This document shows, piece after piece, positions 9,101-25,084 of a stretch of DNA of 64,000 bases (positions within the stretch are counted from its first letter, which is position 1; every line of letters starts with the position of its first letter). The DNA is from Desulfatiglans anilini DSM 4660. Its GTDB lineage: Bacteria; Desulfobacterota; DSM-4660; Desulfatiglandales; Desulfatiglandaceae. Position numbers and translations under genes: made by a program. The DNA lies in assembly GCF_000422285.1 (NCBI RefSeq), contig NZ_AULM01000004.1:124001-188000 (forward strand), written 5' to 3'. The notes beneath the pieces are model-generated. The model saw only the letters and a list, made by a program, of their open reading frames with translations. It was not told the DNA's origin and did not search any database.

Positions 9101-12100
9101 GACATAGGAGCCGTCGGCATGTTCTCCGTTCGAAAGGACTTTTCCGTCCTGGTTTTCCAGGATGTTGTCCACCCGGGCCGTGATCTCGATGTCGAAATAG
9201 TCGTTGGCCCCGTCCCCGTCCGGTGCATTGGTCACGTCACCGAAATCGAAGCGGATGCTCTGCCCGTCGACGAAAGGGCTGCCCCCGGCGTTCTCGAAGC
9301 TGATGCCCGCATGAGCTGAAACGAGGTGGCTCACGTAGCTCAGACCCGGCGGCAGGGTGTCGTTTACCAGGGACAGGGAGGGGATCGTCCCCTCGATGAT
9401 GGCGATCCGCAATCGGTACGTGACCGTCTCTCCGACCGCGTACCCGGTCCTGCCTGCCGGGATGGTCTTATCGAGGGCGATATCCGCATTGACGGTGATG
9501 GACTTGGAGGCGGACTCCTCATAGTTGTTCAGATCCGCGTCGTCGTCGTCATCCACTTCGCCCGGCCCCGATGAGTTGTCACGGCCGCCGTCCACCAGAC
9601 TCGTGTAGGAGGCCCTCACCCCATTGGTCAAGACCTGCCCCGGGGTCACGGTCGCCGTGAGCCTCGAATCGAAGCGGATCGTGATGCGCGCGCCGGGGTC
9701 CATCTGGACCGTGTCGGATGCATCCCCGGAGGAGATGCTCGCCAGATCGAGCGTATCGTCCGTGTTCTGGGTTGTGCCCACGTGGAGGTGGGCCGCCGTC
9801 ACCGGCGTGGAGGTGCCGTTCAGAAAGACCGCCGCGCCCTCGGTGAGGAGTTCGAGGTTGCTGATGAGATACAAGCCCCGGTCGGGATGCGCCGGATCCC
9901 GCGGAAGCACATCCTTCCAGTCCACCTGGTAGGCGGTGGTGCTTCCTGTGTTGACGATGGTCACTTCCCAGGACACGGTGTCCCCGGCATCGGACCCGGC
10001 AGCCCCGGCCGTCGCGATCTTCTGGATCTCGAGGTTCGGCTCCCCGACGCGAACCTGCGCCGACACCGGCTCCAAGGACACGGTCTTGCCGGGATCAGCC
10101 GGGTCCTCATAGCTGAGGACCGCGCTGTTGGTCAGGAGTTTGCCGTCCTGGTTGGCCGGTTCGTTCTTCACCTCGACCTGGTATTCAATGACGATGGCGC
10201 CGGCCGTGGGGATCGTGATGGTGCCGAAATCGAAGGTCAGCGTATTCGAACTCACGTTGTAGTGGAAAAAGCCCGGGTCGTTCGCCTCGGTGAGAGGAGC
10301 CTTGGAAGCGCCGGCACCGTCCGGGAGGCTCACGGCAAGGGTGCCCGCCAGAAAGGCGGTGAGCGGGACGCCGGATTCGGCGGGAAGCGTGTCAAGCACC
10401 TTGAATGCGTTGGTGGTTCCGGCAGGGACTTCCAACGTAATCCTGAAAGTCGGCCGGGAGCCGATGGCATAGCGGGTCTCGGCCCCCAATCGCTCCTTCG
10501 CGATCGCCGGCGTCAGAATGGCCACCTCGGCCCCATCCTGCCCGTAAAGATCGTTGGCGCCGCCGCCCGTACCGTTCCGTTCGCCGTCTTGCGCGCCGGA
10601 TCCGCCGGGCGCAGCATCGCCGGTCCCGCGCTCACCGGGCAGACTGCTGGTGTCAAAGCGCGCCGTGTTGGGAATCACCTGCCCATACTTCACACCCTGG
10701 GTGAGGGTCGCCCGGTAGCTCACCTGGACGCACTCCCCCGGATCCAGGCGGTCGATCGTCCCCGCCAGGGTGTTGCCGGAGAAGGCGGCCGCAACCACGG
10801 CGCCGGTCGCGCCCGGGTCGATATCGACAACCTGTGGATCGCCGTATTCCACCGGCAGCGAGTCCTCGAAGGACCAGTCGAAGGCCGGGGTGGCGCCGGG
10901 ACCTGTGGCATCGTTGCAGATATCCAGCGTAAAAGTGATGATCGACCCGGCCTCTCCGCTTCCGGGCGCCGCCGCTTTTGCGATGGCGGGCACCGGTTCG
11001 GCCACGATGACCGTCAGTGAATCGCCTTTGCTGGTCCGTGCCTGCCCCGCCGCAGTCACCCAGCTCATCCGCCCCTGATCCATGAGGTTCACATCGGTGT
11101 AATTCCCCGCTATGTTTCTGACCACGCATTTCAGGGTGAGAAGATACTCGGCCGCCACGGCGCCGTTGTTCTGGACATCACCGAGCGCGATGGAAACGCC
11201 CCAGGTTTCCGCCGTCAGGTCCACGGATACCGGATTCCCCGGAACGTTTGCATTGATGCCGCCCGGGTCGATGACAGACAACAGGGATTCGCTCGAACGG
11301 TCGAGCATCGCGCTGCCCGCGATGAAACCGAGGCCGCCCGGAAGTTCGTCCCCCAGCGTCACACTCCGGGTCAGGCCCGGGGGCAAACTGAAGCGAACCC
11401 GGTACTCCACCACCTCGCCGATGGCGACACGGCTACCGTTGGTGAATTCCTCCGAAGTGCCGAGGATCTCCTTGGTCCCCGTGCCTGCCGGGCTGGTCGT
11501 GATCGAGTCGCTCCCCGAGGCGGAAGGCTCTCGGTCGTAGGCCGGATCATCGAACTCGGGGTCCGTTCCCGGCAGGGAATGGCCGGCGGCGGTGGCCGTG
11601 TTCACAAAGGTCGAACCGGTCACCACACTCTGGCTCAGGTTCACGGTAAAGGTGAAAGAGCGCGACTGCCCAGCCGGGAGGTCGCCCGTGTAGCTCAGGG
11701 CGCACGTGCCGAATCCGCCGGGGGTGAACCCCCCGTCGTCCGTGTTGAGGGTCGTGGTGCAGTCGTAGACGGCCGGGTCCAGACTGTCTGCCACCGTCAC
11801 GCCATAAGCCGGCCCGTCCCCGGTGTTCCAAACCGTCAGGGTCATAGCCACGGATTCACCGCCCACGAGATTGGTATCGGGGTTGATCACCTTGACAATG
11901 GTCAGCTTCGGTTCGGTGAGGGTCGTGGCCGCGGTGGCGGAATCCGTGAAGCTCGCATCCGCCGTGCCGTCTCCCGTGAAGTCGATGCCGAACTGGGCAT
12001 CGATCCGGTTCGTGAGGAGTGTTCCACTCTGGTTGGCGGACACGTTGTTCACGCGAACCTTCACCCGGTACCGGAAGGTCTTGGGCCCGGCGAAATCGCC

Positions 12101-15100
12101 CAGCGTCCATGTCAGGACCTGGCCCGTCTGCGTAGGCGCGATGGCGAAGTCGCCGCCGTCCTGCGCCGCCGAGACGAAGGTCGTGTTGGGCGGCAGGGTG
12201 TCCGTGAAGATCACCGCTTTGAAGGTGTCCGTGTTTTTGAAGACCGCCTCGATGGTGTAGGTCAGTTCCTCGCCGATGTTGGCGTTTTCCTTGTCCACCG
12301 TTTTGGTGAGCTCGAACCCCGCCGTATAGGCGCTCGTTTCGTCATGGGTGTAAGTGCAGGTGGCCGTGCCTCCCTGGTCTTCGCACGTCCCCTCGACCGT
12401 CGCCCGGTTCAGGAGGGAGCCCTCCCCCACGGTGGCTTCCACGGTGACCGTGTGGGTTCCGCCGTTGGCGGCGATGGGTCCCGGGATCACCCATGTGCCA
12501 ATGTTTCCGCTCCAGCTGGCCCCCGCGCTCGCCGGGTTCGAAAAACCCCCGCTCAACACGTCCGTCAGAACGATATCGGAAGCCGGGGCATCCCCCTTGT
12601 TCGTGAGGGTGATGGTCCAGGAGGCGGTGCCCTCGTCGGGAACGGTTTGGGTCTGCGGGGTCTTGACGATGTCGATGTCGGGCTGTGCCGGATCGATGAC
12701 ATCCTCGTCCGCAGCGCTGTAGTCCCCGCCGCAGGTGTCGTCATAGTCGAAAGCGACCTGCCTGCCGAGGTCGGGAATCGGAACATCCGCCGGATCGATG
12801 CCGTCATTGACCGCTGTGGTATCGCAGTAACGGGGGTCGCTTAGATCCACCTTGGCCCAGTAATGGATGGTGATGGTCTCCCCGGGGTAAATCCGGTCGA
12901 TATTGGAGGAATCCCACGTCGGGCTGCCTCCGGCCACGCCGGCGCAGTTGAGGGAAAAAGCATGGGTGGCACCGCCCGGCGTGCCGGTGGCCGCGACTGT
13001 GCATGCACCGGAAGGGTCGAACACATAGCCGGCCGGCAAAGTATCGACGATGCTTTGCACGATGGCGGTCGCCCCGCTGTTGGTGATCGTGATGGTGACG
13101 AGCCCCCCGCAGGTGGTCCAGGCCCCGTGGGTTGCGCTGACCTCGCCCCCCGCGAAATCCGGCCGGGTGCGGAGCGCCACGCTGTCGCTGACGGTTTCGA
13201 GCGCCGGCGCCGCGCAGCAGCCGTAGACCGCCGAGGCGGTGTTGACCGTCAAGTCCCCGCATTCGCCCGCATCGACCGTGGTGCTGAAGGTCACCTGGCA
13301 GTCTTCCCCGACCGGAAGATCTCCGATCCCGCATCCGGCACCGAAAAAGTCGCCCGACAAGCAGGTCCCGCAAGTGGATGTGAACGTTCCCCCCACAAGG
13401 GTCACGTTGGCAGGCAACGCATCGGCGATGAGGACGTCTTTCGCCGGGTATTCCCCGTCGCTCGTAAAGGTGATCTGCCACTCCACGACATCGCCCGGAT
13501 CCGCATCGACTTCGTCACGGGTCCATCCCGTGTCCTTGGTAGCGTTCCGGCCCTCCTTGAGCACCGTCACCCGCGGGTCGGCCGGCTGCGCGGCATAGAT
13601 CTTCGGGGCCGAAGCGCTGCGCGGCTCTCCGGGGAGGACCTCGCAGGGCCGGTCGTACCACCCGGTCGCCTCGGCCTGCTTGTTGGACGATGCGTAGCGG
13701 GCGCCGCTCGTGCAGTCGCCGCCGGGGATGCTGACCTTGAACGTGAGCTGAATGTCGCTCCCCGGCTTCATGGCCCGGTCGCCGTCACCGTTGACCGGCA
13801 AGACCTCGCTGAAATCCCAGATGATCCGCTGGCGCTGGACCTCGAAGGGGTCCGAGGGGTTGGCGATCTCCGTGGTAATGGTCGGTATGAGTTCCGCCGG
13901 GCTCGTCCCATAGCCGTTGCTGTGCACAGCGGAGGTGCTGCCCGTCACGTAGGCCACGCCGGGCGGCAGCAACTCCACCAGGCGGACGTTGTAGACGTCC
14001 GTCTTCCCGGTGTTCCGGGCGGTGATGGCGAAGTCCGTTTCGTCCCCGCAGTAATCGATGGGATCTCCCGTGTGCTCCAAGATCACGAGGTCGGATTGGG
14101 TCAGAACAACAACGCTCGAAAGGGCTTTCTCGCTGCAGGTCTCTCCCCTGCAACCCCATGCGACTCGGGCATCGATGTCGAGGTTGTCGCATCCGACGAG
14201 CCGCATGGTCACCTGGATCACTTCCTGGGCCCCGGGCGCGATCTCGTCGAACGCGAAGGTCACGGTGTGGTCTCCCACCGCCCCGGTGGCTGGGGGAACG
14301 TCGCTCGAGAAATAGACGAGATCGGTGTCGAGGTCCAGGGTCACGACCGTGTTGACCATGGGCCCCGAACCGCCGTTGACGACGTAGATGTTCTGAACCG
14401 GGTAGGGTGTTGCGGCGAAGATCTTGGCAGGCACCAGATGGAGCGTCGGTTCACCCGTTTTCATGAAGATCGGCTGATCGGTCGCCACCGGGATCGCGCG
14501 CACCGGCGGATCGGTGCCGTTTTCGCAGAGATTGTTGTAGCGCCCGTCAGCGCCCCAATCGAGCGGGCTCTCGCAGTCGTGCTGCATGCGGAAGGTGATC
14601 GTCCCCTGGGGCTTGATGTCGCCCAATTCCCACGTGCGGGTCCCGTCTCCGTTGTCTACCGGCTCGAAGACCGCGATGGCGTTCCCGGAAAGATCCTGGA
14701 GGCCGGAAAAGCTCACCGTTTCGATGTAGGTGTAATGCCCCCTGGTATCGAGCGTAATCTCCGCGTCGTAGCCGCCGCGGAACCCTCCCAGATCGATGGT
14801 GTACTCACGGATTTCGCAGGCGTTGATGAGCGGCGGCCCGCCGACGGAAAGGGTCAGGCGGGCGCCCTCCACAGTAAAACCGGTGCTCACATCGTATACA
14901 GGGGAATCCACGCACCCCGTCCCGTCCGGGTCCGGCACCTCGAGGGTGGCGTGGGCGGTGTAGTCGCCTTCTTCGTTGTCAAACGAATGCGCATACCGGA
15001 CACAGACGACCGTGCCGCCTGCATTGGGCGCGGGCACGCCCGTGTCCTCCAGGGGATCGAGGGGATCGAGCGAGAGGGGGAAGTCGGGGGAGCTGAAAAG

Positions 15101-16963
15101 GCCGGTGCGGTCGACGCCATTGACCGTGATTTCCAGGATCGTGGCGTCCTTCGAAGGCGCTTCATCCAGGAACGCATCGAGTTTCATGCCGGTCCAGGCG
15201 GCCGGGGCGCCGCTGTCGAAGACGTAACACGCCCGGAAGGTGATGTCCGAACAGACGTCATTGTCGGAAAGCCTTTGAACGGAGGAGCTCTGGGTCACGT
15301 CACCCGCCGTGTCGGTCAGGAAGGTGCTGAAGGTTGCGGGCTCGTTGACGCCCGGGCAGCCGCGGCAGTCGTCCGGGACCGAACTCACCGTCACCGTGTT
15401 CGCATACGACCGGAAGGCCGCGCACGGCTCCGTACCGGGCGGGGCATCCAGCACGACGGTGTATTCGACGCTTTCCCCGTTGGCCTTGAACGTGTGGGTC
15501 CATTGGACGGCGTCGCCGTCATGATCCCCGCCCCCCGCATCGACCAGGCTGAAACCGTAGGGGTGGTCACCGACGTCGGGGTAATCGTCCGTAATCGTGA
15601 CCTCATGAGGCAGCACGCCCTCCGGCCCCGTGTAGGTGACGCGGATCGTGTAGGTCAGGTCCGTATCCCCCACCTCGGCCGTCGCGGGACCCGATTTCTC
15701 GATGGTGAAAGTGGGCTTGGGCGCCGGTTCGAGTTCCCAGAGACCGGGGCCTTGGACCGGCGGACTGTAAATGGTTCCGAAGACGGGGCCGCACTCGTTG
15801 GTATATTGGGGCAGATAGAGGATCGCCGCACTCGGCGTCGGCGAACAGTCGCCCGGGGGGCCGAGGGCGCCGGCGGTGACCTGGAAGGTGAAGTTCAAGC
15901 TCCCGCCGGCCGCAACGTCCGGCATCGAAAACGTGGCGGTGCTGGGGTCGAAGCTCACCTCCGCGTTGCTGATCCCGCTGACCACCCAATCCGCGGGCCA
16001 GTTCCGCATCTCCAGGGTGAAATTTTCAGCCGGCCCCTCCCCGCTGTTTTGAATCGTCACAGCGGCCTGCGACCCCGCGCAGTAATCGATGGCACCCGGC
16101 GGAGTCACCGTGATGTCGACCACAGGTTCCCTGATCTCCAAAGCCACCGAGGCGGTGGCCGCGAGCGGCGTCGCAATGCACAGGGTCTCGCCGTCCCCCC
16201 AGACTACCGATACCTCGTTGATCAGGCTGTCGCGGTCGCACCCGGTCACATAGGCCATGATCGTGTAAACGGCCCGGTTTTCCGGCGCCTCGAAACCGAT
16301 CGGGCCGGTGTCCCACGTAACCGGCGTTCCCGCCGTGAGCGGGTCATCTGGCAGGTCGTGCCCGCTCGGACTGGAGATGCTGTAAAACGTAAAGGCCCCG
16401 CCCAGGGTGAAGGTGATGTCGGCACCTGTCACCAGATCCCCGTTGCCCGCGTTTTCAACCGTCAGGGTCCAGGAAACCAGGTCTCCCACGTTGGCGTCCG
16501 TCACCGCATTCTCCAAGGTCACGGCCAGAAAGGGGCTGCCAACGAAGACAGGGGTCGAGTCGGCCTCGGCGCCGCCCGGCTCCACCCGGGCGAATATCTG
16601 CTGCCCGGTGCCCGCGCCGCACACGGGCCGCGCCTTGAAGGTGAGCGCAAAAGAGCCCCCGGCGGCGGGCACGGTGATGTCGTCCAGACTCAGTTTGTGG
16701 GGCGAGAAGGACTCCACAGCCCCGCCGTCATCGGTCACCTTGAAATCATCCGGGATCTCGAGGATGAGTGAGACGCCTGTCACAGGCGACGCCTCGTCGC
16801 TGGTGACTGCCACTTGCCAGGTTCCTTCCTGGCCGATGGTCAGATCCGTGCTTTGCTGCGTGAAGGAAACCTGAAGGGCCGCTACGGCCGAAGACGGCAC
16901 GAGAAGCGCGGCTAGAAAACAAAACACGATCAGTGCCCACTTCGACGTCACGGCCTTGCACAT
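3140..16963 (-). CDS. Giant secreted DUF11-repeat surface protein with IPTL-CTERM-like tail (4,607 aa)
   Basis: Predicted cell-surface or matrix protein. The start chosen is the ATG at 16963: AGGAGG lies 5 nt upstream (16969-16974) and the first 28 residues form a clean signal peptide (LIVFCFLAALLVPSSAVA). An upstream ATG in frame adds 75 residues without signal features. The body is a long series of beta-sandwich repeats, at least two dozen of the DUF11/TIGR01451 kind, recognisable by 'VTYTVTVxNxG...VVTDTLPxGLxFV' cores separated by Asp/Asn/Gly-rich linkers. The last three repeats (about 130 aa each) are closely alike and begin PDL(S/A/T)(I/V). The C-terminus is VPALDGLG, a hydrophobic helix and KRRRRE, which matches the IPTL-CTERM/PEP-CTERM type of sorting signal. 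No exosortase gene is in the window. Cysteines are frequent in the first half but absent from roughly residue 2,400 to 4,200. Likely role (inference): adhesin or stalk-like surface fibre. Confidence 0.92.
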   Translation of the reverse strand: MCKAVTSKWALIVFCFLAALLVPSSAVAALQVSFTQQSTDLTIGQEGTWQVAVTSDEASPVTGVSLILEIPDDFKVTDDGGAVESFSPHKLSLDDITVPAAGGSFALTFKARPVCGAGTGQQIFARVEPGGAEADSTPVFVGSPFLAVTLENAVTDANVGDLVSWTLTVENAGNGDLVTGADITFTLGGAFTFYSISSPSGHDLPDDPLTAGTPVTWDTGPIGFEAPENRAVYTIMAYVTGCDRDSLINEVSVVWGDGETLCIATPLAATASVALEIREPVVDITVTPPGAIDYCAGSQAAVTIQNSGEGPAENFTLEMRNWPADWVVSGISNAEVSFDPSTATFSMPDVAAGGSLNFTFQVTAGALGPPGDCSPTPSAAILYLPQYTNECGPVFGTIYSPPVQGPGLWELEPAPKPTFTIEKSGPATAEVGDTDLTYTIRVTYTGPEGVLPHEVTITDDYPDVGDHPYGFSLVDAGGGDHDGDAVQWTHTFKANGESVEYTVVLDAPPGTEPCAAFRSYANTVTVSSVPDDCRGCPGVNEPATFSTFLTDTAGDVTQSSSVQRLSDNDVCSDITFRACYVFDSGAPAAWTGMKLDAFLDEAPSKDATILEITVNGVDRTGLFSSPDFPLSLDPLDPLEDTGVPAPNAGGTVVCVRYAHSFDNEEGDYTAHATLEVPDPDGTGCVDSPVYDVSTGFTVEGARLTLSVGGPPLINACEIREYTIDLGGFRGGYDAEITLDTRGHYTYIETVSFSGLQDLSGNAIAVFEPVDNGDGTRTWELGDIKPQGTITFRMQHDCESPLDWGADGRYNNLCENGTDPPVRAIPVATDQPIFMKTGEPTLHLVPAKIFAATPYPVQNIYVVNGGSGPMVNTVVTLDLDTDLVYFSSDVPPATGAVGDHTVTFAFDEIAPGAQEVIQVTMRLVGCDNLDIDARVAWGCRGETCSEKALSSVVVLTQSDLVILEHTGDPIDYCGDETDFAITARNTGKTDVYNVRLVELLPPGVAYVTGSTSAVHSNGYGTSPAELIPTITTEIANPSDPFEVQRQRIIWDFSEVLPVNGDGDRAMKPGSDIQLTFKVSIPGGDCTSGARYASSNKQAEATGWYDRPCEVLPGEPRSASAPKIYAAQPADPRVTVLKEGRNATKDTGWTRDEVDADPGDVVEWQITFTSDGEYPAKDVLIADALPANVTLVGGTFTSTCGTCLSGDFFGAGCGIGDLPVGEDCQVTFSTTVDAGECGDLTVNTASAVYGCCAAPALETVSDSVALRTRPDFAGGEVSATHGAWTTCGGLVTITITNSGATAIVQSIVDTLPAGYVFDPSGACTVAATGTPGGATHAFSLNCAGVAGGSPTWDSSNIDRIYPGETITIHYWAKVDLSDPRYCDTTAVNDGIDPADVPIPDLGRQVAFDYDDTCGGDYSAADEDVIDPAQPDIDIVKTPQTQTVPDEGTASWTITLTNKGDAPASDIVLTDVLSGGFSNPASAGASWSGNIGTWVIPGPIAANGGTHTVTVEATVGEGSLLNRATVEGTCEDQGGTATCTYTHDETSAYTAGFELTKTVDKENANIGEELTYTIEAVFKNTDTFKAVIFTDTLPPNTTFVSAAQDGGDFAIAPTQTGQVLTWTLGDFAGPKTFRYRVKVRVNNVSANQSGTLLTNRIDAQFGIDFTGDGTADASFTDSATAATTLTEPKLTIVKVINPDTNLVGGESVAMTLTVWNTGDGPAYGVTVADSLDPAVYDCTTTLNTDDGGFTPGGFGTCALSYTGDLPAGQSRSFTFTVNLSQSVVTGSTFVNTATAAGHSLPGTDPEFDDPAYDREPSASGSDSITTSPAGTGTKEILGTSEEFTNGSRVAIGEVVEYRVRFSLPPGLTRSVTLGDELPGGLGFIAGSAMLDRSSESLLSVIDPGGINANVPGNPVSVDLTAETWGVSIALGDVQNNGAVAAEYLLTLKCVVRNIAGNYTDVNLMDQGRMSWVTAAGQARTSKGDSLTVIVAEPVPAIAKAAAPGSGEAGSIITFTLDICNDATGPGATPAFDWSFEDSLPVEYGDPQVVDIDPGATGAVVAAAFSGNTLAGTIDRLDPGECVQVSYRATLTQGVKYGQVIPNTARFDTSSLPGERGTGDAAPGGSGAQDGERNGTGGGANDLYGQDGAEVAILTPAIAKERLGAETRYAIGSRPTFRITLEVPAGTTNAFKVLDTLPAESGVPLTAFLAGTLAVSLPDGAGASKAPLTEANDPGFFHYNVSSNTLTFDFGTITIPTAGAIVIEYQVEVKNEPANQDGKLLTNSAVLSYEDPADPGKTVSLEPVSAQVRVGEPNLEIQKIATAGAAGSDAGDTVSWEVTIVNTGSTTAYQVDWKDVLPRDPAHPDRGLYLISNLELLTEGAAVFLNGTSTPVTAAHLHVGTTQNTDDTLDLASISSGDASDTVQMDPGARITIRFDSRLTATVTPGQVLTNGVRASYTSLVDGGRDNSSGPGEVDDDDDADLNNYEESASKSITVNADIALDKTIPAGRTGYAVGETVTYRLRIAIIEGTIPSLSLVNDTLPPGLSYVSHLVSAHAGISFENAGGSPFVDGQSIRFDFGDVTNAPDGDGANDYFDIEITARVDNILENQDGKVLSNGEHADGSYVYLEYGETPVRVDFDDDPGTPDVIEGVPITVIEPDLSVTKNVLPEQQSLGDLVEFTLTVVHTGESHADAFDIVVTDTLPDGLTFVDTPVAGGDYTVDGQKLEFRKAALTRGAPDNGLWQFTYRARIDSDAPVGTGLTNLALLSWASIPGATGGADDGRNGADAPGGLNDYGDEARDTVIPTTAAFIDAKKVWALEADPDASQSVTPGDTVRYTITLTNTNGGATNVVFEDRVPDFTTYVAGSLASSKGTVEDGGLPLLVVRAGDMAQGEEVVIHFLVTVNAGALPGTVLWNQGSVDSDQTIPEPTDWDGNDQNGDQPTEIVVGGAPLEAGLYVWKFVEWVNDADDSGSVTLGDTMRYWVVFENTGSTALSEVTFADEIPSGLLYTGSSVATSGLLHVAGQALQLTGMAVPVSGLEYIWFEVEVDAVGSFENQGIADSAETGPVPSDGNGDPTDGAQPTVFSSVDGEGAPLLDLQKRWRLFSDVYPDGLVNPGESIVYTVTLSNKGAAPATDVRFRDPIPTHTTIVPGSVVASQGVVVSQAPVEVNVGDVYPGDVVLISFRVTVDLGTADGTILLNQGSVASNELEDVPSDDNGYDGDGKNPNLTPVAIPGSTVGQPSGLSKTLEASSEPDSAGAQVMIGEVLTYRVTVYVPSGTTLHAEVSDALPDGLVYVADSGRLARVFETGLSASADPGGVNMAPSGVYVPLTDGVDLAYSDGNVSVFLGDVINSDGSPGAYILELKAVVANVAGNQAGTVLNDQGGFSYWNGLSQTQMLTPADLPVTVIEPGIQVVKSGLPLAVFPSGGEVTFTVTVVNPAGPYAAPGYDVRIRDVLPLQYAGLVVESISPSGGVVAGDVYDNSTADALDVSVDRFPVGGQVVVVYTVTTGAEPPPGTLIDNTAQVTFTSVPGPNGTGDAAPGVSGEETGERNGSGAGPNDYRAEDSERVVVGAINAVKAIVDPKTRYAIGDVVTYDVLLTGNWAAGYNAVVTDTLDAGLSFIAGSAGLVSADGVAVEHDPPLVAVQAQTVTFTLGDITNDDPGVQKYVRLSYSARVENLLTNQDGTRLSNDALFQVDDADEGGATHDIPVDSVDIVVGEPTLTLIKTITSNYTGLQAGNGVDFSVVVGNTGSTTAFDVVLSDILPVGLENVVSLQVTNVTGGAETPLLHVDLEPDGWHTDPFDVPVGGSVTITFSAGLTIEVSPGDEIQNRVTAEFSSLDGEDTHERTGAGGSDQNDPAVLDNYNTSANSQIITVADPVALDKRFHPDPAGTTYAVGEIFTYRLTIELIQGTIEDLVVTDTLPAGVTFLPPAVVGKGNAGMGYDYTDPPGPDQDGQELTFDFGRVTNPGDGDLSNDFITIDLPVRVDNILANQNGTALLNNAELSFSGPQGTVVRFFDADAEEPGIQPLKAEVVEPDLVVEKTMDPTEQSRGNKATVSLRIFHTPDSRTTAYDLVVTDTLPAGLSYVDATGSPLTPEVDGQVLTFRISALTLADHDLTITYQVLIAPDVAPEVPLVNEAALTWSSMPGATGEEDSGRTGGGGLNDYDDQDQADLTPKAPDLSIVKSDDGATVSPGQVIAYELTVSNNGTWPASGVMITESVPANTTFDALSSSPGWSCADGSPAGAAYTLMVGSLGVGDQGAVVFAVKVVDPLPAGVESIVNAVAITDDGSNGPDPNPGDNGSTDQTPVEAAPDLAVVKTDGGATGVPGGTIVYTLQYANNGDQGATGVVLRETVPEHTVFSAGSSTPGWSLVSGDGGAGSVYEWAVGPLEGGGAGGAAAFAVTVVNPLPAGVEGLLNHAGIADDGANGEDTNLDDNASSDETPVTAAPDLTITKEGPERIGPNGLIVYTIRIANVGDQDATGVKIVETVPQYTVFRASKSTPGWSCPDGSRGGTECVYSVGELGAGETLDLEFAVLVARAAPNGEKIENNAVVADDGVNGPDPTSDNNTGSAVTQVVHPVPVPALDGLGMVVMSMLLAILGGFALKRRRRE
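4480..11480 (-). repeat. Large intragenic block duplication in the giant gene
   Basis: Two blocks of about 2.8-2.9 kb occur in the same orientation with the same order of domains: roughly 11480-8590 and 7250-4480 (offset about 4.1-4.2 kb). Landmarks recur in order: a 'TG(D)AAPG.SG...ERNG(S/T)G' linker, a 'RYAIG' module, a 'VNTGSTTA' module, a 'YAVGE..TYRL' module with 'EGTI/QGTI', and a module ending GLNDY. Three further domains (about 7250-8590) lie between the blocks. The copies are clearly diverged, so the duplication is old. Block ends are approximate. Confidence 0.6.
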
Positions 16964-18022
16964 TTCTGCCTCCTGAAAGAGAAAAAACCGAATCGCTTCA
17001 GACCTTCCCCCGGCGGCGACCTTCCGTCCCCATGAAACCACTGGAACGCGAAAAGCCAATCCATCGGGAGACTGCAGGAAATCCTGGACGATCAGCAAAA
17101 CGACGGAAAGGCAAAGACGCCCCGCCGCCGGAGCCTTAAAACCAAAAGCAATCCATCCGCAGATCAAGAATCCAGGATAACGCCTCAAAGATGAAAGCTT
17201 TGGAAAAGCTCAAAAACCTATCCGAAAAAGCAACGTCACCCATTTGACCGAAGGACAAAATGCGGTTTACAAAACCCTGAGATAAAGGGCCTTTGCCTTA
17301 CCGGCAAGTCAGAGAAAACAAAACTTTCAGAACCTCATCGAGCAGGCATGCGGTATGGCTCTGCTCTTGGGGGAACCATTTGTTCGATGTGCCAAAGTTC
17401 CCACTAAAAGCTATTTGGATCCCGAACCGACCACGGGGGTGCTCACCGCTCAACCGGTTCGGATGGGGTACAACCCGGCGCTTCCGGGCAACCCGCAGCG
17501 ATACCCTGAAAATGGAGTTTATTCGTGCTTGCAAACTAACGCGAAGGAAACTTTCAAGAAAAATCCGAGCAACCTTATACTCTAATTGAGAACAATGTGC
17601 AATAAAACTGTTGTAATACGATGCTCCGATGTGCCAAGCCCTGGTTTACCTTGAATCATCAGGCTGGAACCTTTCCTCTTCGATGGGGCATCGCCAATGC
17701 ACACCAGCCAAATAGGAGTTCCAGGACAATCAAAGAAATGAGATGGGCAGATCCGAGGCCAAGGGGATCCCAGAGGCGTCCTTTCAGGACGCAACGGAGC
17801 GGCTGAACGGGTTTACAGCACCGCAGTGAAAACTTTAAACTGCCGTTACCTTTCAAAAGGGATTCAAATGGTTCCGGGACGGACCTTGATAGGACGGATT
17901 GTCGGCCTACGGCGTGGGAATTTCATTAGAGGTTGATTTTTTTCGCCTATGTTACACGGAAAATAGCGCATTCCATGTTTATGGGTGAACCGCAAATCAG
18001 CCCGGCAGATCCGGCCGCAAAC
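16964..18022. other. Gene-poor stretch upstream of the giant gene
   Basis: About 1 kb with no gene that can be supported. It must hold the promoter of the giant gene, but no convincing -35/-10 pair could be chosen. The part around 17200-17960 is visibly more AT-rich than its surroundings. Short open frames here (for example 17355-17585) resemble no family I recognise and lack good ribosome binding sites, so they are not called. A compact hairpin lies at 17776-17792. Confidence 0.6.
17776..17792. repeat. Short perfect hairpin in the gap
   Basis: GCGTCCT (17776-17782) and AGGACGC (17786-17792) form a 7-bp stem with a TTC loop. Nothing nearby says whether it acts as RNA or is a repeat end. Confidence 0.5.
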
Positions 18023-18035
18023 CCACCTAGAGTGT

Positions 18036-18203
18036 CCATCCGGAAATGATTTTCCGGTACAACCCAATTTCCAATCCGGAAATGTGGGGTTTTTCCCCAT
18101 ATCAAGGAAATCAAGTGTTTGCACGGAGGCGACCTGCAGGTCGCCGCACAAGCAAACGTGCAGGTTGACACCGAGATGGGCCAAAAAGACCATTTCCGGA
18201 TGG
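18036..18203. repeat. Intergenic palindromic element, copy R1
   Basis: 168-bp element. The ends are inverted copies of CCATCCGGAAATG (left) and CATTTCCGGATGG (right). Its centre is a long stem, GGCGACC/GGTCGCC around TGCA, inside GTTTGC...GCAAAC, with a further pair CCCAT/ATGGG outside it. It is flanked by direct repeats CCACCTAGAGTGT (18023-18035) and CCACCTAGGGTGT (18207-18219), 12 of 13 identical, which look like a target-site duplication. The right copy contains the stop codon of the EtfA fusion gene. It may also serve as a transcript end for that operon. Confidence 0.8.
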
Positions 18204-18210
18204 AAACCAC

Positions 18211-19875
18211 CTAGGGTGTGTATAAAACGACCAGGCAGCGGGTCGGTTCGTTCGAGACGCTCTTCAGCTTGTGCGGGATGTCGGAGTTGAAGTGGCGGGA
18301 ATCCCCTGGTTTGAGGTGGTGGGCGCGGTTGCCCAGGGTGAGCATGAGCTCCCCTTCCATGACGAAGATGAACTCTTCGCCTTCGTGCTTGTAGGCCACC
18401 GGCTTGTGGGTCTGGCGGGATTCGATGGTGATGAGGAAGGCGCGCAGGTGGTCGTTCTCGGCCCCCGGGCTGAGGGTCTGGTAGGAGTAGTTCCGGGTCC
18501 GCTTGACAAACGCCTGCGCGCGCAGATCCCGGAGGAGCGTCTTCTGCTCCTGGCGCAGGAACAGGCCGGGGTCGATCTTCAAGGCGTTTGCGAAACGGAG
18601 CAGAAAACCGACGGGGGGCGTCAGGAGGCCCTCCTCCACCTGGCGGATGAATTCCGGGGATTCGTCCGTCGCCTCGGCCAGGGCCTCCAGGGACCAGCCG
18701 TACTGCGCACGAAGGCGGGCAAAACGCGCTCCGAAACCATCCCCCTGTCCGCCGCCCGCCGCTTCGGTCAAGGCATCCGCCATGCGCCGCAGAGTCAACT
18801 GCTGCACGGCCTCGGTCAGATGGGGCAGAAATATCCGTGCATCTGCGACCACGCCGATATCGGCCACCTGGAAGATGGGCGCTTCCGCGTCCCGGTTGAC
18901 GGCCACAATGGTCCCGGCCTCGCCGATCCCGGCCGTGTACTGCACGGCGCCGGAGGTGCCGATGGAAAAGAGCAGCCTCGGGTGGACCCGCTTTCCGGTC
19001 TGCCCGATCAGCCGCTCCTCCTCAACCCAGCGGGAGAACACCGGCGGCCGGGTCGCACCGACCTCCCCGCCGAGCGCAGCGGCCAGATCCCGAACGAGTC
19101 CGAATCCTTCCATATTCCCGAGGCCGGCCCCGCCGACGACCACGACCTCCGCCTCCTCGAGCGACTGACCGCGCTCTGCTTCGGCCGCAACCTCGAGGAG
19201 CGTGCACCCGCCCTGCTCCTGGATCCCTTCCCATGCAAAAGATTCCAGAAGCCCGGGTGCCCCGCGCTCCCCGCCAGGCATCCAGGCATACGGGTCCACG
19301 GTAACCAGGCCGGTCACGGCGTCATCGGCGAACACGATCTTGGCCGTAACCGTTCCTCCCCAGGCCGGACATCGTGCCTTGACGCGGCCCCCCTCGACCT
19401 CGAGGCGGATGCAGTCGGCGATCAGGCCCGACCCCGTCAGCGCCGAGACGCGGGCCGCCGTCTCGCGGCCAAGTTCCGTCAGGGGAAAGACCACCAGGCG
19501 GGGTCCGAGCACAGCGATCCGGTCGGCCAGCGCCTGTGCGAGAGCGCCCGCGGGCGCACCGCCCGACCATGGGATGCGATAGAGATGGACATCATCCGCC
19601 CCGCCGGCCGCGGCGGCCTCCGCCGCCTCCTCCACCGGGACAGCCTCGACTGCAGGGGGGGTCGACTCGTCCAGCCGCTCGAGGGCCGTCAGCACCATGA
19701 CCGTTCGACCGCCAAGGGAGGAAGCCGCCCCGCGCGCGGCGTTCAAGGCCCGCAGGCTCAATCCGTAAAGGGCCTCGGTCCGGCGGTCGCCGAAGACCCA
19801 GACGGCGTTTTCAGCCGCATGCTGCAAGTCTCTCGCCCCAGCCCCTTCTTGGAGCGTCTTTTCCGGTTGGTTCAT
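18211..19875 (-). CDS. etfA: Electron transfer flavoprotein alpha subunit fused to XRE helix-turn-helix and cupin
   Basis: 554 residues, far longer than a normal EtfA (about 310-340). Residues about 25-200 are the ETF alpha N-terminal domain. About 242-355 is the FAD domain, with VGGAGLGNMEGF, ATRPP, GQTGK (291-295), IGTSGAVQY, VAVNRDAEAPIF and AD.GVV.D, so FAD binding appears intact. About 380-440 is an XRE-type helix-turn-helix (FARLRAQYGWSLEALAEATD). About 475-554 is a cupin with HEGEEFIFVMEGEL (H497, E501, G508) and H535. The frame is continuous, so this is a true fusion. Its ATG overlaps the etfB stop (ATGA). Expected to pair with EtfB and take electrons from the adjacent acyl-CoA dehydrogenase. 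The XRE-cupin part resembles SutR/PuuR-like regulators and suggests, by inference, that the protein also binds DNA in response to a ligand. Confidence 0.93.
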   Translation of the reverse strand: MNQPEKTLQEGAGARDLQHAAENAVWVFGDRRTEALYGLSLRALNAARGAASSLGGRTVMVLTALERLDESTPPAVEAVPVEEAAEAAAAGGADDVHLYRIPWSGGAPAGALAQALADRIAVLGPRLVVFPLTELGRETAARVSALTGSGLIADCIRLEVEGGRVKARCPAWGGTVTAKIVFADDAVTGLVTVDPYAWMPGGERGAPGLLESFAWEGIQEQGGCTLLEVAAEAERGQSLEEAEVVVVGGAGLGNMEGFGLVRDLAAALGGEVGATRPPVFSRWVEEERLIGQTGKRVHPRLLFSIGTSGAVQYTAGIGEAGTIVAVNRDAEAPIFQVADIGVVADARIFLPHLTEAVQQLTLRRMADALTEAAGGGQGDGFGARFARLRAQYGWSLEALAEATDESPEFIRQVEEGLLTPPVGFLLRFANALKIDPGLFLRQEQKTLLRDLRAQAFVKRTRNYSYQTLSPGAENDHLRAFLITIESRQTHKPVAYKHEGEEFIFVMEGELMLTLGNRAHHLKPGDSRHFNSDIPHKLKSVSNEPTRCLVVLYTP

Positions 19876-20651
19876 CCGATCAGCCCCCTCGCTGCGAGCC
19901 GCTTCGCGATCGTCTGAGCCTGCTCCTTGAGATCGCCTTCCAAAAATTCACACCGGCGCCGGCCGCCGACGGCCGGCGAAACCCCCTGAAGCTGCGTGGG
20001 GGAGCCGGCTTCGCCCACCGCGCCGGCGGGCAGACCGAGATCTGCGAGCGACCATCGTTCGATGGCCCCTTGCCCGAAGGCCGACTCGATCCCGGCCAAA
20101 CCCGCATCGCGCGGTTCGGCACATTTCGGGTGGACGGAGAAAACGCCCGGAAAAGCGAGCCGGTAGGACTCGCGGAAACCGTCGCAACAACGCTCCACCT
20201 TGCACCCATCCGATTCACGGTCGAAGCGCCGCACCCCGGAAACGAAAGGCAGCCCCAGCATGACGGCAACCTGTGCGGGGACCTGCCCGGTGTCGCTGTC
20301 CGCGCTGCGCAGGCCGAAAAGGATCCCATCGACGGGGGCCGCCTTCTTCAGTGCGGCGGCCAGCACCCGCGCGGTGGCGAGGGTGTCCGAACCCGCAAAG
20401 CCGGGATCCGTCAGCAGAATCCCCTTGTCAAACCCTTGGGCGAGGGCCTCGAAAAGCACAAAAGCGCTGCTCTCGGGCCCCATGGACAAGGCCGTCAGAC
20501 GCCCCCCGGCCTCGGCCTTCAAACGCAGGGCCGCCTCCATCGCCGCCCGGTCGAAGGGATTCAGCACACACGTGTCCGAAGACCGGACCGCCCTGCCTGA
20601 CGGGGCCTTCATCATCACCGCCTTGATGCATACCACGATATGACGTTCCAT
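19872..20651 (-). CDS. etfB: Electron transfer flavoprotein beta subunit
   Basis: 259-residue EtfB. Family motifs: CIKAV near the N-terminus, LNPFDRAAMEAALRLK (AMP-site region), ALSMGPESS, ILLTDPGFAGSDTLATARVL and DTGQVPAQVAVMLGLPFVSG. With the alpha subunit it forms the soluble flavoprotein that carries electrons between acyl-CoA dehydrogenases and a membrane or redox acceptor. The stop overlaps the start of the EtfA fusion by 4 nt (ATGA), so the subunits are translationally coupled. The acyl-CoA dehydrogenase lies 115 nt upstream with a palindrome in the gap. Whether the ETF is of a bifurcating type cannot be decided by eye. Confidence 0.93.
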   Translation of the reverse strand: MERHIVVCIKAVMMKAPSGRAVRSSDTCVLNPFDRAAMEAALRLKAEAGGRLTALSMGPESSAFVLFEALAQGFDKGILLTDPGFAGSDTLATARVLAAALKKAAPVDGILFGLRSADSDTGQVPAQVAVMLGLPFVSGVRRFDRESDGCKVERCCDGFRESYRLAFPGVFSVHPKCAEPRDAGLAGIESAFGQGAIERWSLADLGLPAGAVGEAGSPTQLQGVSPAVGGRRRCEFLEGDLKEQAQTIAKRLAARGLIG

Positions 20652-20707
20652 TCATTCCATCCTCAGCCGGACGTTCGATCAACGCCGATCCTCCACCGGC
20701 CCTGCCA

Positions 20708-20739
20708 TTTTCCGTCCGATCCAGCGACCGATCGGAAAA
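20708..20739. promoter_or_regulatory. Imperfect 14-4-14 palindrome between acad and etfB
   Basis: TTTTCCGTCCGATC (20708-20721) and GACCGATCGGAAAA (20726-20739) are inverted copies with 11 of 14 positions matching and a 4-nt centre. It sits in the only sizeable gap (115 nt) between acad and etfB. It could be an operator, for example for the XRE-cupin domain encoded two genes downstream, or an mRNA hairpin setting relative expression. It is not followed by a U run on the coding strand, so it is a poor terminator. Confidence 0.4.
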
Positions 20740-20766
20740 ACGGGAGCGACGCACCAGCTCCGTTCG

Positions 20767-21909
20767 CTATTCCTCCAGGAGTCCCCTGGCAACCACCAGC
20801 CGGTGGACCTCGCTCGTCCCCTCGTAGATCCTCGTCACCCGGGCATCGCGGTAATAGCGCTCCACGGGATAGGCCTTCGAATAGCCGTAGCCCCCATGAA
20901 TCTGGAGGGCCTTGTCGGTCACCTCCGAGGCCGCCTCGGCTGCGTACAGCTTGGCCATGGCCGCCGCCTGTCCGAAAGACTTGCCCTGATCTCGGAGTCG
21001 GGCCGACCGGTAGACGAGAAGGCGCGAGGCCTCCACCCGGGCCGCCATGTCCGCCAGCATCCCCCCCACGGCCTGGTGCTGCCCGATGGGGACGCCGAAC
21101 TGCCGCCTCTGACGGGCGTACAGGACCCCCTCTTCCAGAGCGGCCTGGGAGATGCCGACCGCCTGGGCGGCGATGCCCATCCGGCCGGCATCGAGCGCCG
21201 CGAGACCGATTTTCAGCCCCATGCCCTCCCTTCCGAGCAGGTTTTCGGCGGGAACGGGACAGTCATAGAGCCGGATGGAACTGACCGGGTTCGCACGCAC
21301 GCCGCAGAGGTCCTCGAGATCCCCGACCACGAAACCCGGCGTTCCACGCTCGGCCACGACCACGCTGATACCCTTGCGGCCCGCTTTGGGGTCCGTCCGG
21401 GCGAAGATCAGGCACACATCGGCGACGCCCCCGTTGGTCACGAACACCTTGTTGGCATTGACGATGTAATGATCCCCGTTGCGGATGGCGGTCGCCTCGA
21501 TGCCGGCCGCATCGGAGCCGGCGTTCGGTTCGGTCAGGCAAAAGGCGCCGATCTTCTGCCCCCTGGCGAGCGGCGGCACCCATTTCCGCTTCTGCTCCCC
21601 GCTCCCGAAGGCCATGAGCGGGTAGACCGCCACGCTGTTGTGCACCGTCACGCAGAGGCCCAGTCCGGCGCAGACCCGGGAGATCTCCTCGATGACGACG
21701 CAGTAGCAGACCGCGTCCATCCCCGCCCCGCCCAGCTCATGCGGGACCTGGATGCCGAAATACCCCAGGCGGCCCATCTTTTCGACCACCTCCCAGGGAA
21801 AGGAGGCCTCCTGGTCGATCTGCCGGGCGATGGGCCGCAGCTCCCGCTCGCAGAATCCCCGCACCGAGCGGCGCACGGCGCGGCCCTTTTCCGTGAGAAA
21901 TGTGTCCAT
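20767..21909 (-). CDS. Acyl-CoA dehydrogenase
   Basis: FAD-dependent acyl-CoA dehydrogenase that forms an alpha,beta-enoyl-CoA and passes electrons to ETF. 380 residues from the ATG at 21909 (MDTFLTEKG), the usual family length. A TTG at 21954 would add 15 residues and is less likely. Motifs: [52 protein letters not shown] and [16 protein letters not shown], whose Glu is at the position of the catalytic base of short-chain dehydrogenases. The acyl substrate is not predictable. The adjacent etfB-etfA genes make these its likely partners. Confidence 0.93.
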
Positions 21910-21950: not shown

Positions 21951-22406
21951 TCAACCCACCAGCCAGCCCTGATTCACCTGGAAGGCCTTCTTCAGCATCC
22001 GGAGCGCACCCTTCTTGTCCTGCGGCCGCTTGACCATGATGCGGGTCTCCCCCATCACGAAGGTCAGATAGCTTTGAAACTTGACATGGCTGACCGCGGA
22101 AAAATCCTCGCTGACGCGGCCCCGTTCATCCGGAAATTGAAAGGTGATCCTGCGATTCCCGAAGTCCAGATCGATCCACTCGACAAACCGCCGCCGGTAA
22201 AAGAGGACCAGGGCATAGAAGGGGCCCACAAAAAAGGTGCCCTTGAGAGCGGCGGCGAACCAATCGCCGTCGTTCGACCCGAAGATCAGAAAAACGACGA
22301 TCAGGTAAACAGTGACGGCAATCGGTTGAAGATGCCTGAAAAAAAACCGTTCCTCTCCAGGCATGGAAAATGAGTGTACATCAGACCGCGCATCCCCCTC
22401 GGCCAT
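21951..22406 (-). CDS. Small membrane protein with PH-like soluble tail, unknown function
   Basis: 151 residues from the ATG at 22406, which overlaps the stop of the upstream PEP-synthase-like gene as TGATG with GGAGG 7 nt away. A GTG one codon earlier is also possible. Two hydrophobic segments (about 28-44, PIAVTVYLIVVFLIF, and 54-70, LKGTFFVGPFYALVLFY) are followed by a soluble domain of alternating beta strands (VEWIDLDFGNRRITFQF; VKFQSYLTFVMGETRIMVK). This is the pattern of bacterial PH/YcxB-like membrane proteins. The tight overlap suggests it works with the PEP-synthase-like protein. No specific role can be assigned. Confidence 0.75.
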   Translation of the reverse strand: MAEGDARSDVHSFSMPGEERFFFRHLQPIAVTVYLIVVFLIFGSNDGDWFAAALKGTFFVGPFYALVLFYRRRFVEWIDLDFGNRRITFQFPDERGRVSEDFSAVSHVKFQSYLTFVMGETRIMVKRPQDKKGALRMLKKAFQVNQGWLVG

Positions 22407-25084
22407 CACCCCGCCTCCCTCTTCAAACGCTCCTGCTTCTCCATGCCGGCCTCCCGATGAAGCCTTCTGAGAACCTCCAGGTCGTGCAGGATCTTGCTGC
22501 GATAGCGGCTGACGGAGGCCCCGTCCTTCATGATCATATCCAACTGACGCGTGTGGATGGTCAGATATCCCAAGGCCTTCAGGTTTTCCTCCATCTCATC
22601 GCGCGCGCGGTCCTCGATCCGCGCGATGAGCATGTCCTCCTTCACCTCGACCCGGAACCCCTGGTTTTCAAGGATATCGGCGATAAAGAGGATCCGCCGC
22701 TGACGCCGTTCATCGTCTGCGGCCCCGCCCTTGAAATGAAAACTGGCGTAGTTTTCGCTCGGACGGTCGCTCACCAGGGCCTCCGCCGTCGAAAAGTGGA
22801 AGCCCAGCCGGGAGGTCAGGCTGCAATAGTTCCTGGAGATCATGAAGTAGTTCCGCTCGGCGTACCGGGACCGCACCCCGGTGACCAGGTCCGTGTTGGT
22901 GGTCGCCTGGAACATGACAGAGAGCATGCCTCTCCCGTCGACCGGCGGGGGGCCTGCCCACGGCTTGAAACGGATTCCCTCCCAGATCGCCCGCATCGGG
23001 ATCGAAACGATGTTTTCGAGCGCCACACGCCTCCCCTGCACCTCCTCCCTGAACCCGTCATCCAGGTTCAGGACCCACCACTGCATGGGCACCTCGCACA
23101 CGAGCTGCTTGCTCGAGCGCTCGGGGAAATCGTGCTCCTTGCCGAAGAGGAACATCTCCGCCACGGCCTTCTCGTGGCAGAAGCGGGTAATGTCATGGAA
23201 GGTCCGGCAGTTTTCGGGCTTGAAGTCCATCGAATCGGGGTCGAGAAGATTCAAGGGCACGATCAGGGCTGCAGCCCCTTGAAGCGCCTTGTAAACCGGA
23301 CTGCCCTCCATCAGGTTGCGGCGGCAGACAGGCGCACGCCCCAGGAGGGCCTCCGCCCGCCCGTCGTAAAGGGTCCGGCCCTCCGCATCCACAGTCACGA
23401 TTCGCCCCTCTTCCAGACTGTCCATCACCCCTTCGAGGCCGAAGAGCGCCGGGACTCCAAATTCGCGGGCCACGTTGGCGAGGTGCCCCGCAATGCCCCC
23501 CTGCTCAGTGACCACCGCCGCGGCACGGCTCAGAAGGGTCGCCCATCGCGGCAGAGACTGGGAAGCCACCAGAACAGCCCCTTCAGGAAACCGGAGGGTG
23601 TCCATGTCCTTCCGCACCTTGAAGACGGGTCCAACACCCACCCCGGGGCTGGCCGTCACACCGCCGCTCGCGATTCCTCGAACGCCATCCGCAGCGCCGA
23701 CAACCCTCGCAGCGTCTTGCGGCCCCGGCTCCGTGCGCTGCTCCAAGGGTCTGCACTGCAGAATCACCAGCCTGCCCTCCCCGTCGACGGCCCATTCAAT
23801 GTCCTGTGCGACCCCGTAGTACGCCTCGAGACGCCTGGCCAGCAAGGCGAGTTCGATCGCCTGTTCATCCGTCAGAGAGGGTTTGTCCGCCTCCTCGTCC
23901 AGGCCATCCAGCCGGCAGACCCCCTCGGCCGGATAGCAGACGAACTTCTCCCGCTTGCGGGAAACATCCCGATGGTGGATGACGGGCGGATCTTCCCTCC
24001 CGACGACGAAAAGGTCCGTGGGCGTGCTGCCGTCGACGACCGACTTGGGCAGCCCCCACACCGCATGGATCATCACGGCGTCATCGCGGATATCCACCGG
24101 ATTGCGGGAATAGGTCACCCCGCCCGCCACGGCATCGACCATGGCCATACACGCGACACACATGGCTACATCTTCGTCGCGGATCCCCCGGTTGAGGCGA
24201 TAGGCCATGGCCGTCAACCCATACTTGCTGGCGACGATCTCCCTATAGGCGTCGAAGAGGTTCTCCCTGCTGACATTCAGCTGCGAGCGATACTGGCCTG
24301 CAAAGGACACCCCTTCCAGATCCTCCCCGAGGGCGCTGCTGCGCATGGCTACGGTCACCCCCGGATTTTCCTTCTCCTGGAGGGCCCGGTAGGCTGCTGT
24401 CAGAGCCTCCTCGAGCTCAGGCGGCATGGGGGCTTGAATAATCAGCTGCTGAATGGAGGCGCTCAAGGCGTAGAGTTGATCGAGGCGCTCCACATCCGTT
24501 GCCTGAATGCGCCGGTCGATCTCCGGCTGCAGCTCGCTGTGGGCCATGAACCGCTGGTAAGCCGCAGCCGTGATGGCAAAGCCGTTGGGAACCCGGATGT
24601 TCAGCCGGTTTCGGACCTCGCCCAGGTTGGCGATCTTCCCCCCGACCTGATCCGCGAGGTTCCGGTCGACAGCCTCGAGCGGGAGGGTCCATTCTCCCTC
24701 CCATAGGTGGACACCGGTCTGAAGGAATGGATTCAGCTGTTTCTGGATGGTCTTGAAGCGGTCGAACAGGACGGCGTACTTGTCTTGGGACAACTCATTG
24801 ATGTGCTTAGTGATCTTGAAAACGCTGGTCGAGACGGCAATACAGCGCGAACGGACGAAGTGCATCCCGAAGGGCGCCGACCCCCTCAGGGCGCCTTCCA
24901 TCTCCGCCATCGTGTCGAGCGCCTGATTGTTGGCGCTCAGGAGCAGTTTGAACTGATGGTACCGTGCCCTGAAGTCGTTGCGCAGACTTTCCACATCTCC
25001 GCTGAAAGACCCGGCTCCCCGTCTAAAGCACGAACTCAGAAATGCTTTGATACGCCGCATCATCAGCCTGATCCCATCCCGCAT
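22406..25084 (-). CDS. PEP synthase/PPDK-like protein with an unrecognised C-terminal domain
   Basis: 892 residues. About 1-140 is helical and not recognised. About 145-460 is the ATP-grasp pyruvate phosphate dikinase N-terminal domain (GGKIANLGEV, VPNGFAIT, MRSSALGEDLEGVSFAGQY). About 500-580 is the swivelling phosphohistidine domain, VTEQGGIAGHLANVAREFG, with the acceptor His near residue 530. The last 300 residues do not show the TIM-barrel PEP/pyruvate domain of true PEP synthase (no GGxxCGQ-like end). So phosphotransfer from ATP to His is likely, but the final acceptor is unknown. Rifampin phosphotransferase and water dikinase relatives share the first two domains. It is first in a run of five minus-strand genes that reaches the EtfA fusion. 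Confidence 0.85.
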   Translation of the reverse strand: MRDGIRLMMRRIKAFLSSCFRRGAGSFSGDVESLRNDFRARYHQFKLLLSANNQALDTMAEMEGALRGSAPFGMHFVRSRCIAVSTSVFKITKHINELSQDKYAVLFDRFKTIQKQLNPFLQTGVHLWEGEWTLPLEAVDRNLADQVGGKIANLGEVRNRLNIRVPNGFAITAAAYQRFMAHSELQPEIDRRIQATDVERLDQLYALSASIQQLIIQAPMPPELEEALTAAYRALQEKENPGVTVAMRSSALGEDLEGVSFAGQYRSQLNVSRENLFDAYREIVASKYGLTAMAYRLNRGIRDEDVAMCVACMAMVDAVAGGVTYSRNPVDIRDDAVMIHAVWGLPKSVVDGSTPTDLFVVGREDPPVIHHRDVSRKREKFVCYPAEGVCRLDGLDEEADKPSLTDEQAIELALLARRLEAYYGVAQDIEWAVDGEGRLVILQCRPLEQRTEPGPQDAARVVGAADGVRGIASGGVTASPGVGVGPVFKVRKDMDTLRFPEGAVLVASQSLPRWATLLSRAAAVVTEQGGIAGHLANVAREFGVPALFGLEGVMDSLEEGRIVTVDAEGRTLYDGRAEALLGRAPVCRRNLMEGSPVYKALQGAAALIVPLNLLDPDSMDFKPENCRTFHDITRFCHEKAVAEMFLFGKEHDFPERSSKQLVCEVPMQWWVLNLDDGFREEVQGRRVALENIVSIPMRAIWEGIRFKPWAGPPPVDGRGMLSVMFQATTNTDLVTGVRSRYAERNYFMISRNYCSLTSRLGFHFSTAEALVSDRPSENYASFHFKGGAADDERRQRRILFIADILENQGFRVEVKEDMLIARIEDRARDEMEENLKALGYLTIHTRQLDMIMKDGASVSRYRSKILHDLEVLRRLHREAGMEKQERLKREAG

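Follow-up and report, generated by a model that had tools for sequence, protein, structure and literature searches.

A Conserved Fusion of an Electron-Transfer Flavoprotein Alpha Subunit to an XRE-Cupin Module in an Acyl-CoA Dehydrogenase Operon of Desulfobacterota

Organization of the Locus

The stretch considered here, called the window throughout, comprises 64,000 nucleotides of the genome of Desulfatiglans anilini DSM 4660 (contig NZ_AULM01000004.1, positions 124,001 to 188,000 of the forward strand), and our subject is a gene within it that joins the alpha subunit of an electron-transfer flavoprotein (ETF) to an XRE-type helix-turn-helix (HTH) domain and a cupin. The gene, etfA::XRE-cupin (18211..19875, minus strand, like all of the window's reading frames and domains given below), is an uninterrupted frame of 554 codons with an ATG start, a TAG stop, and no internal stop. 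Its product contains, in order, the ETF domain (residues 25–204, 19264..19803; PF01012, 2.3e-20), the FAD-binding ETF_alpha domain (residues 239–317, 18925..19161; PF00766, 7.9e-27), the XRE-type HTH (residues 381–437, 18565..18735), which is matched by HTH_31 over residues 381–436 (6.5e-9) and by HTH_3 over residues 387–437 (3.6e-7), and a cupin barrel (residues 463–554, 18214..18489), matched by Cupin_2 over residues 486–550 (PF07883, 1.2e-15), with all of these Pfam matches exceeding the curated cut-offs. An XRE-type HTH followed by Cupin_2 is also the order, with the same folds, of the XRE-cupin regulators PsdR, PauR, and PuuR and of the solved structures 1y9q and 6b8w, although in the window the module is covalently joined to a redox subunit.

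Directly upstream, etfB (19872..20651), which encodes the 259-residue ETF beta subunit, overlaps the fusion gene through an ATGA, and is preceded by a gene for a short-chain acyl-CoA dehydrogenase (ACAD) of 380 residues (20767..21909), which starts at the ATG at 21909 and is separated from etfB by 115 nt; a longer reading frame from the TTG at 21954 exists but is not needed. The coordinates, the continuous ETF alpha/XRE/cupin frame, the coupling through ATGA, and the upstream ACAD gene had all been proposed in a preliminary description made by inspection of the letters, and both the open reading frames and the domain search, which recovered HTH_3 as well as the cupin, bear that description out. 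In-frame internal starts ahead of the HTH are present across the fusions, almost none of them with a Shine-Dalgarno-like stretch, and internal translation yielding a free XRE-cupin was for this reason rejected.

Distribution of the Fusion

The sister genome, a separate single-contig assembly, encodes a full-length fusion of 93% identity, and at least 35 further genomes hold the fusion at 37–57% identity, so that a sequencing error can be excluded; the fusion is real, and an artefact, whether a frameshift, a sequencing error, or a misassembly joining two genes, has no point in its favor, is contradicted by the intact full-length fusions in at least 36 genomes including isolates, and has in our estimate a negligible probability. 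The counted full-length fusions fall into nine families of the host's phylum, with a strong match being found in 24 of the 85 genomes of the class, nearly all of them full-length fusions, and in 22 of the 395 genomes sampled across the phylum. A scan of genome contigs adds the named isolates Desulfosarcina widdelii, D. cetonica, D. alkanivorans, and Desulfatitalea alkaliphila, as well as a metagenome-assembled genome (MAG) of the Desulfarculaceae and a MAG labelled Nitrospirota. Two fusions each occur in genomes G054 and G066, one of these copies being truncated where its contig stops.

Gene calling around the loci reveals a constant unit, ACAD-etfB-etfA::XRE-cupin, which is present almost always, while the flanks vary between families; at one locus (L034) no ACAD was called in a partly masked upstream stretch, and some other contigs end within the operon. 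The search of architecture and context envisaged in the preliminary description thus returns an ancient fusion that has been maintained in a conserved three-gene operon, and this conservation indicates that the joining of the two parts matters. The fusion at L034, on a chromosome labelled Nitrospirota, is very close to that of L112 (G084), a genome of the same order as the window, and represents either a recent transfer or a misnamed genome. We found no description of a fusion of an ETF with an XRE or cupin domain in the open-access literature, subscription papers lying outside that search, and the fusion proteins may already carry automatic annotations.

Electron-Transfer Components

The relatives of all three products in the Protein Data Bank point to the same two systems, namely Bcd-EtfAB of Clostridioides difficile (5ol2) and the caffeyl-CoA reductase-Etf complex CarCDE (6fah), which are the best or near-best matches for EtfA (4e-39 and 3e-39, respectively), EtfB (1e-33 and 3e-31), and the ACAD (8e-123 and 6e-99). 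The gene set is the same as in these systems, the ACAD retains the catalytic-type RIYEGTSE motif, and EtfB retains the shared DxDTxQV motif, which in the window reads DSDTGQV. That EtfA is a complete FAD-binding ETF alpha, as first described, is substantiated by the presence of both the ETF and ETF_alpha domains, by a fold Z of 21–23 to 7koe_B, 5ol2_A, and 4kpu_A, by its position beside EtfB, and by alignments in which Arg276 and Gln-Thr-Gly 292–294 are kept.

There are three differences from 5ol2 and 6fah: their EtfA lacks the HTH-cupin; Tyr313 in the window replaces the His of most ETFs; and EtfB of the window, like that of nearly all of its relatives, has Ser (DSDT) at the bifurcation glycine, with Gly being found only in L025 and L037. 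Gly123 of Acidaminococcus EtfB has been reported as invariant in bifurcating ETFs (PMC12630350), and because the window has Ser at this position, electron bifurcation by its ETF is no more than a possibility, though in sequence the proteins are nearest to bifurcating ETFs.

Standalone Relatives and Evolutionary Origin

The nearest unfused relatives of the C-terminal module are standalone XRE-cupins of about 183 residues, mostly 38–45% identical to it, which are present in most of the genomes examined of the order, including that of the window itself (L105, L136). As judged from 20 loci, as far as their contigs reach, these proteins are encoded in an operon comprising two thiolases (one in some families), an enoyl-CoA hydratase, an ACAD, a methylmalonyl-CoA-mutase-type large subunit, a B12 domain, a MeaB GTPase, a small unassigned protein, the XRE-cupin, and a second ACAD. 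A promoter-like sequence precedes this operon, and its −35 position is occupied by a block, CTTGACTT(G/A)AAAA, that is strongly conserved and is a candidate operator or promoter element; as seen at L128–L139, the block includes CTTGA in tandem. In the wider family, XRE-cupins from Bacteroidota and Treponema mostly adjoin a gene resembling AMP-binding acyl-CoA synthetases. Since its relatives sit either in mutase/beta-oxidation operons or beside such genes, the family of the module travels with CoA-thioester metabolism.

One of the unfused proteins, encoded at L030:7047-8105 (genome G032), is an EtfA that nests among the fusions and ends at residue 352, lacking the HTH-cupin, while its ACAD-etfB-etfA operon is otherwise like theirs. 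When the EtfA sequences of 48 fusions and 13 unfused relatives are placed in one tree, a weakly supported branch (77/33) separates the fusions and L030 from the rest, and trees separating L030 from the fusions are strongly rejected (p-AU 8e-48), and L030 is for this reason probably a loss; a natural loss of the module is the most likely account of its sequence. In the tree of XRE-cupins, a branch (99) separates the fusions plus the mutase-operon standalones from the remaining sequences. A quick version of this tree split off family f7 (L164–L166); a tree with all of the fusions together fits better, fusion monophyly having a p-AU of 0.89. The simplest account of these trees is one ancient fusion followed by one later loss, and a second, separate fusion in family f7 is possible.

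Cupin and Structure Model

Among the domains of the fusion, conservation is highest in the cupin (mean pairwise identity 0.73), followed by the FAD domain (0.70), the HTH (0.58), the N-terminal ETF domain (0.42), and the linker (0.33). The metal-type His and Glu residues noted from the first are confirmed, with Tyr495, His497, Glu500, Glu501, and His535 being present in all 35 non-redundant fusions and in all 18 standalones, and His490 and His528 being nearly invariant in both. The pattern is best read as a putative conserved pocket for a ligand or a metal. HppE, (S)-2-hydroxypropylphosphonic acid epoxidase, has a metal triad with the same H-x3-E...H spacing. In the fusions this spacing is formed by His497, Glu501, and His535, and because the regulator-like standalone members share it, it is not diagnostic of HppE-like enzymes.

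A single-chain AlphaFold2 model, built from a 48-sequence alignment, yields the expected ETF-alpha, HTH, and cupin folds (mean pLDDT 77, pTM 0.43), of which the domains are believable and their mutual arrangement is not. Comparison by VIA-align matches the ETF part to 7koe_B (Z 23.4, 319 residues aligned) with an rmsd of 12.6, and therefore the two ETF halves are arranged differently from those of 7koe_B. The cupin matches the XRE regulator 6b8w_A (Z 15.8, 93 aligned, rmsd 1.9), and further matches include 1y9q (Z 14.6), HppE over HTH and cupin (1zzc_B, Z 13.4), and many metallo-cupins. In the model, the C-terminal helix of EtfA runs on into the linker (residues 359–380, 18736..18801), covering residues 346–372 and ending ahead of the HTH, and an MRxLAD stretch at the linker is conserved in most members.

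The Helix-Turn-Helix Domain and the Search for an Operator

The HTH of the window carries a net charge of about −2, and the mean over the 48 fusions is −1.8, as against +4.1 in 20 standalone relatives; of the 15 domains, several of them partial, that were measured among HTH_3 matches in the window's genome, the window's HTH is the only one with a negative net charge. Of six positions that are nearly always basic in the standalones, four are basic in at most 12 of 35 fusions, a basic residue being found at position 415 in 7, at 430 in 9, and at 383 in 4 of the 35, and Ser411, which is present in 18 of 18 standalones, occurs in 2 of 35 fusions. Ser411, Lys415, and Arg430 of the standalone HTH are thus mostly lost.

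Over the 250 bp or so that precede the ACAD gene in the fused operons, a palindromic operator model fitted by expectation maximization (EM) scored near shuffles, and a non-palindromic motif outscored shuffles when every sequence was included; when each sub-clade is reduced to a single sequence, its score falls close to the shuffled range (67 against 56–63), and relatedness therefore explains most of the whole-set signal. As a positive control, the same motif method recovers the block upstream of the standalone operon. A dyad block, TGGTATCACCA, is conserved in the upstream regions of Desulfosarcina; as an operator it was rejected, having few other sites in genome searches, of which the two inspected adjoin unrelated genes, and no enrichment near related genes. 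The preliminary description had supposed a trigger enzyme, that is, an ETF that itself binds DNA. This is possible and finds no support in these tests, with the basic character and the near-invariant residues of the HTH being lost and no common operator found, and sequence comparison argues somewhat against an HTH that still binds DNA.

Neighboring Genes

Immediately downstream of the fusion gene (18030-18200) lies a 171-bp repeat with about 40 long copies in the genome, most of them at 85–90% identity, an ORF-like translation of which also occurs beside the standalone XRE-cupin locus of the sister genome (L099, L100). Beyond it, a reading frame of 4682 residues (3140-17188) with many DUF11 repeats and a hydrophobic-basic C-terminal tail probably encodes a giant surface protein. 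Directly upstream of the ACAD gene stands a pair consisting of a gene for an 892-residue protein with PPDK_N and PEP-utilizers domains and a C-terminal part without an assigned family (22406-25084), and an overlapping 152-residue reading frame (21951-22409) that matches no family; the pair may share a transcript with the ACAD gene.

Functional Interpretation

The locus encodes a genuine ETF alpha, together with EtfB and a butyryl-CoA-dehydrogenase-like ACAD, which carries at its C-terminus an XRE-cupin of a family with members in beta-oxidation/mutase operons. The reading to which we lean, with a confidence that stops just short of even, is that the module senses a ligand and acts on the ETF to which it is joined, which we regard as slightly likelier than a DNA-binding trigger enzyme. 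The ACAD and EtfAB would oxidize a short-chain acyl-CoA, with the ETF handing the electrons onward, and the cupin, probably dimeric, would bind a small molecule of acyl-CoA metabolism, alone or together with a metal. In known ETFs, the FAD-carrying half of EtfA shifts between partners during electron transfer; in the fusion, the HTH and the extended helix would tether the cupin to this half, and ligand binding could alter the docking or pairing of the ETF. The HTH would be kept as a structural or interaction domain with a remodelled DNA-binding surface, and control would therefore act on the protein instead of the promoter. We count in support of a ligand sensor the intact motifs of the ETF, ACAD, and EtfB, the conservation of the cupin above all other domains, the acidic HTH with its lost basic positions and Ser411, the failure to find an operator of the fused operons, and the conservation of the three-gene operon across families despite changing flanks, with HppE, an HTH-cupin enzyme that matches the model, offering a precedent by fold.

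Several observations weigh against this reading. The HTH fold and its Pfam match are retained in all full-length members, the domain is better conserved than the N-terminal ETF domain (0.58 against 0.42), and the recognition helix opens with Pro407 and Glu/Asp408, which hardly vary among the fusions and are more conserved there than in the standalones, though Thr-Pro-Glu is also an ordinary helix start and its conservation may be structural. The HTH contact columns, selected by homology with the 434 repressor, show no relaxation beyond that of the remaining HTH positions (entropy test, p 0.46). Charge by itself cannot decide the matter and is a weak argument, because XRE-cupins outside the mutase operon (L051–L076, mostly Bacteroidota) have strongly acidic HTHs as well (mean net charge −4.0). 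The upstream sequences of the fused set are more divergent than those of the positive control, and the operon of the window may be transcribed from further upstream than the span searched. Lastly, the lineage of L030 keeps an ETF without the module, which is therefore not essential for electron transfer.

Some of these observations speak for a trigger enzyme, to which we assign a lesser though still substantial probability, of about one chance in three or a little better. Here a free, oxidized, or ligand-bound dimer of EtfA-XRE-cupin would bind DNA and repress or activate genes of short-chain acyl-CoA oxidation, until electron load or an acyl-CoA-derived ligand freed the DNA, in the manner of PutA with an ETF in place of proline dehydrogenase. 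The retained HTH fold and recognition-helix start, the unrelaxed contact columns, and the nearest standalone relative, encoded in a beta-oxidation/mutase operon behind a highly conserved promoter block, fit such a role, as does the finding that characterized XRE-cupins are local transcriptional regulators (PMC10965056), from which the window's module differs by its acidic HTH surface and the lack of a recognized operator. The loss of the basic surface and of near-invariant residues, the failure to find an operator common to the fused operons, and the Desulfosarcina dyad without enrichment near related genes tell against it. PutA possesses a ribbon-helix-helix domain whose binding to DNA has been shown. 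It combines proline dehydrogenase with a transcriptional repressor role (PMC6978683), and, like the window's protein, is a flavoprotein of a catabolic operon with a DNA-binding-type domain, whereas the latter is an electron carrier with a putatively DNA-binding XRE-type domain plus a cupin.

The two remaining explanations are both improbable in our view. The cupin could be a metalloenzyme or metal store with an HppE-like site of two His and one Glu that uses ETF electrons, for example, to convert a CoA-derived substrate in a metal-dependent reaction with flavin as the reductant. The invariant triad spacing and the matches to HppE and to many metallo-cupins agree with this; HppE, however, is a free iron enzyme of fosfomycin synthesis, whereas the module is fused to an ETF and has regulator-like closest relatives in which the same residues are invariant, so that catalysis need not follow, and there is no substrate. 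The known reactions of HppE-like enzymes, moreover, need an oxidant that an anaerobe lacks. Slighter still are the chances that the XRE-cupin merely hitch-hikes, as an independent regulator that shares the polypeptide or is cleaved off, with no mutual influence between it and the ETF: the linker is the least conserved part (33% mean identity) and one lineage lost the module, yet the fusion is maintained across nine families with hardly any split, the linker extends the ETF helix and bears the conserved MRxLAD stretch, and internal start sites are poorly supported.

Implications

In the usual view, an ETF passively shuttles electrons between its many dehydrogenases and the respiratory chain. 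That the family constitutes ligand- and redox-switched transcription factors, in which the carrier would use the XRE-cupin to gauge both a metabolite and how heavily it is itself loaded with electrons, and so set gene expression in Desulfobacterota, we consider possible, though less likely than not. Some hosts of the fusion are sulfate reducers in culture (Desulfosarcina, Desulfatitalea), and the proteins are small enough for purification, which makes both the DNA-binding and the protein-level readings directly testable. If a conserved, covalent sensor does sit on the FAD-carrying half of EtfA, it would mean that a bacterium either controls the carrier directly or uses the carrier as a sensor.

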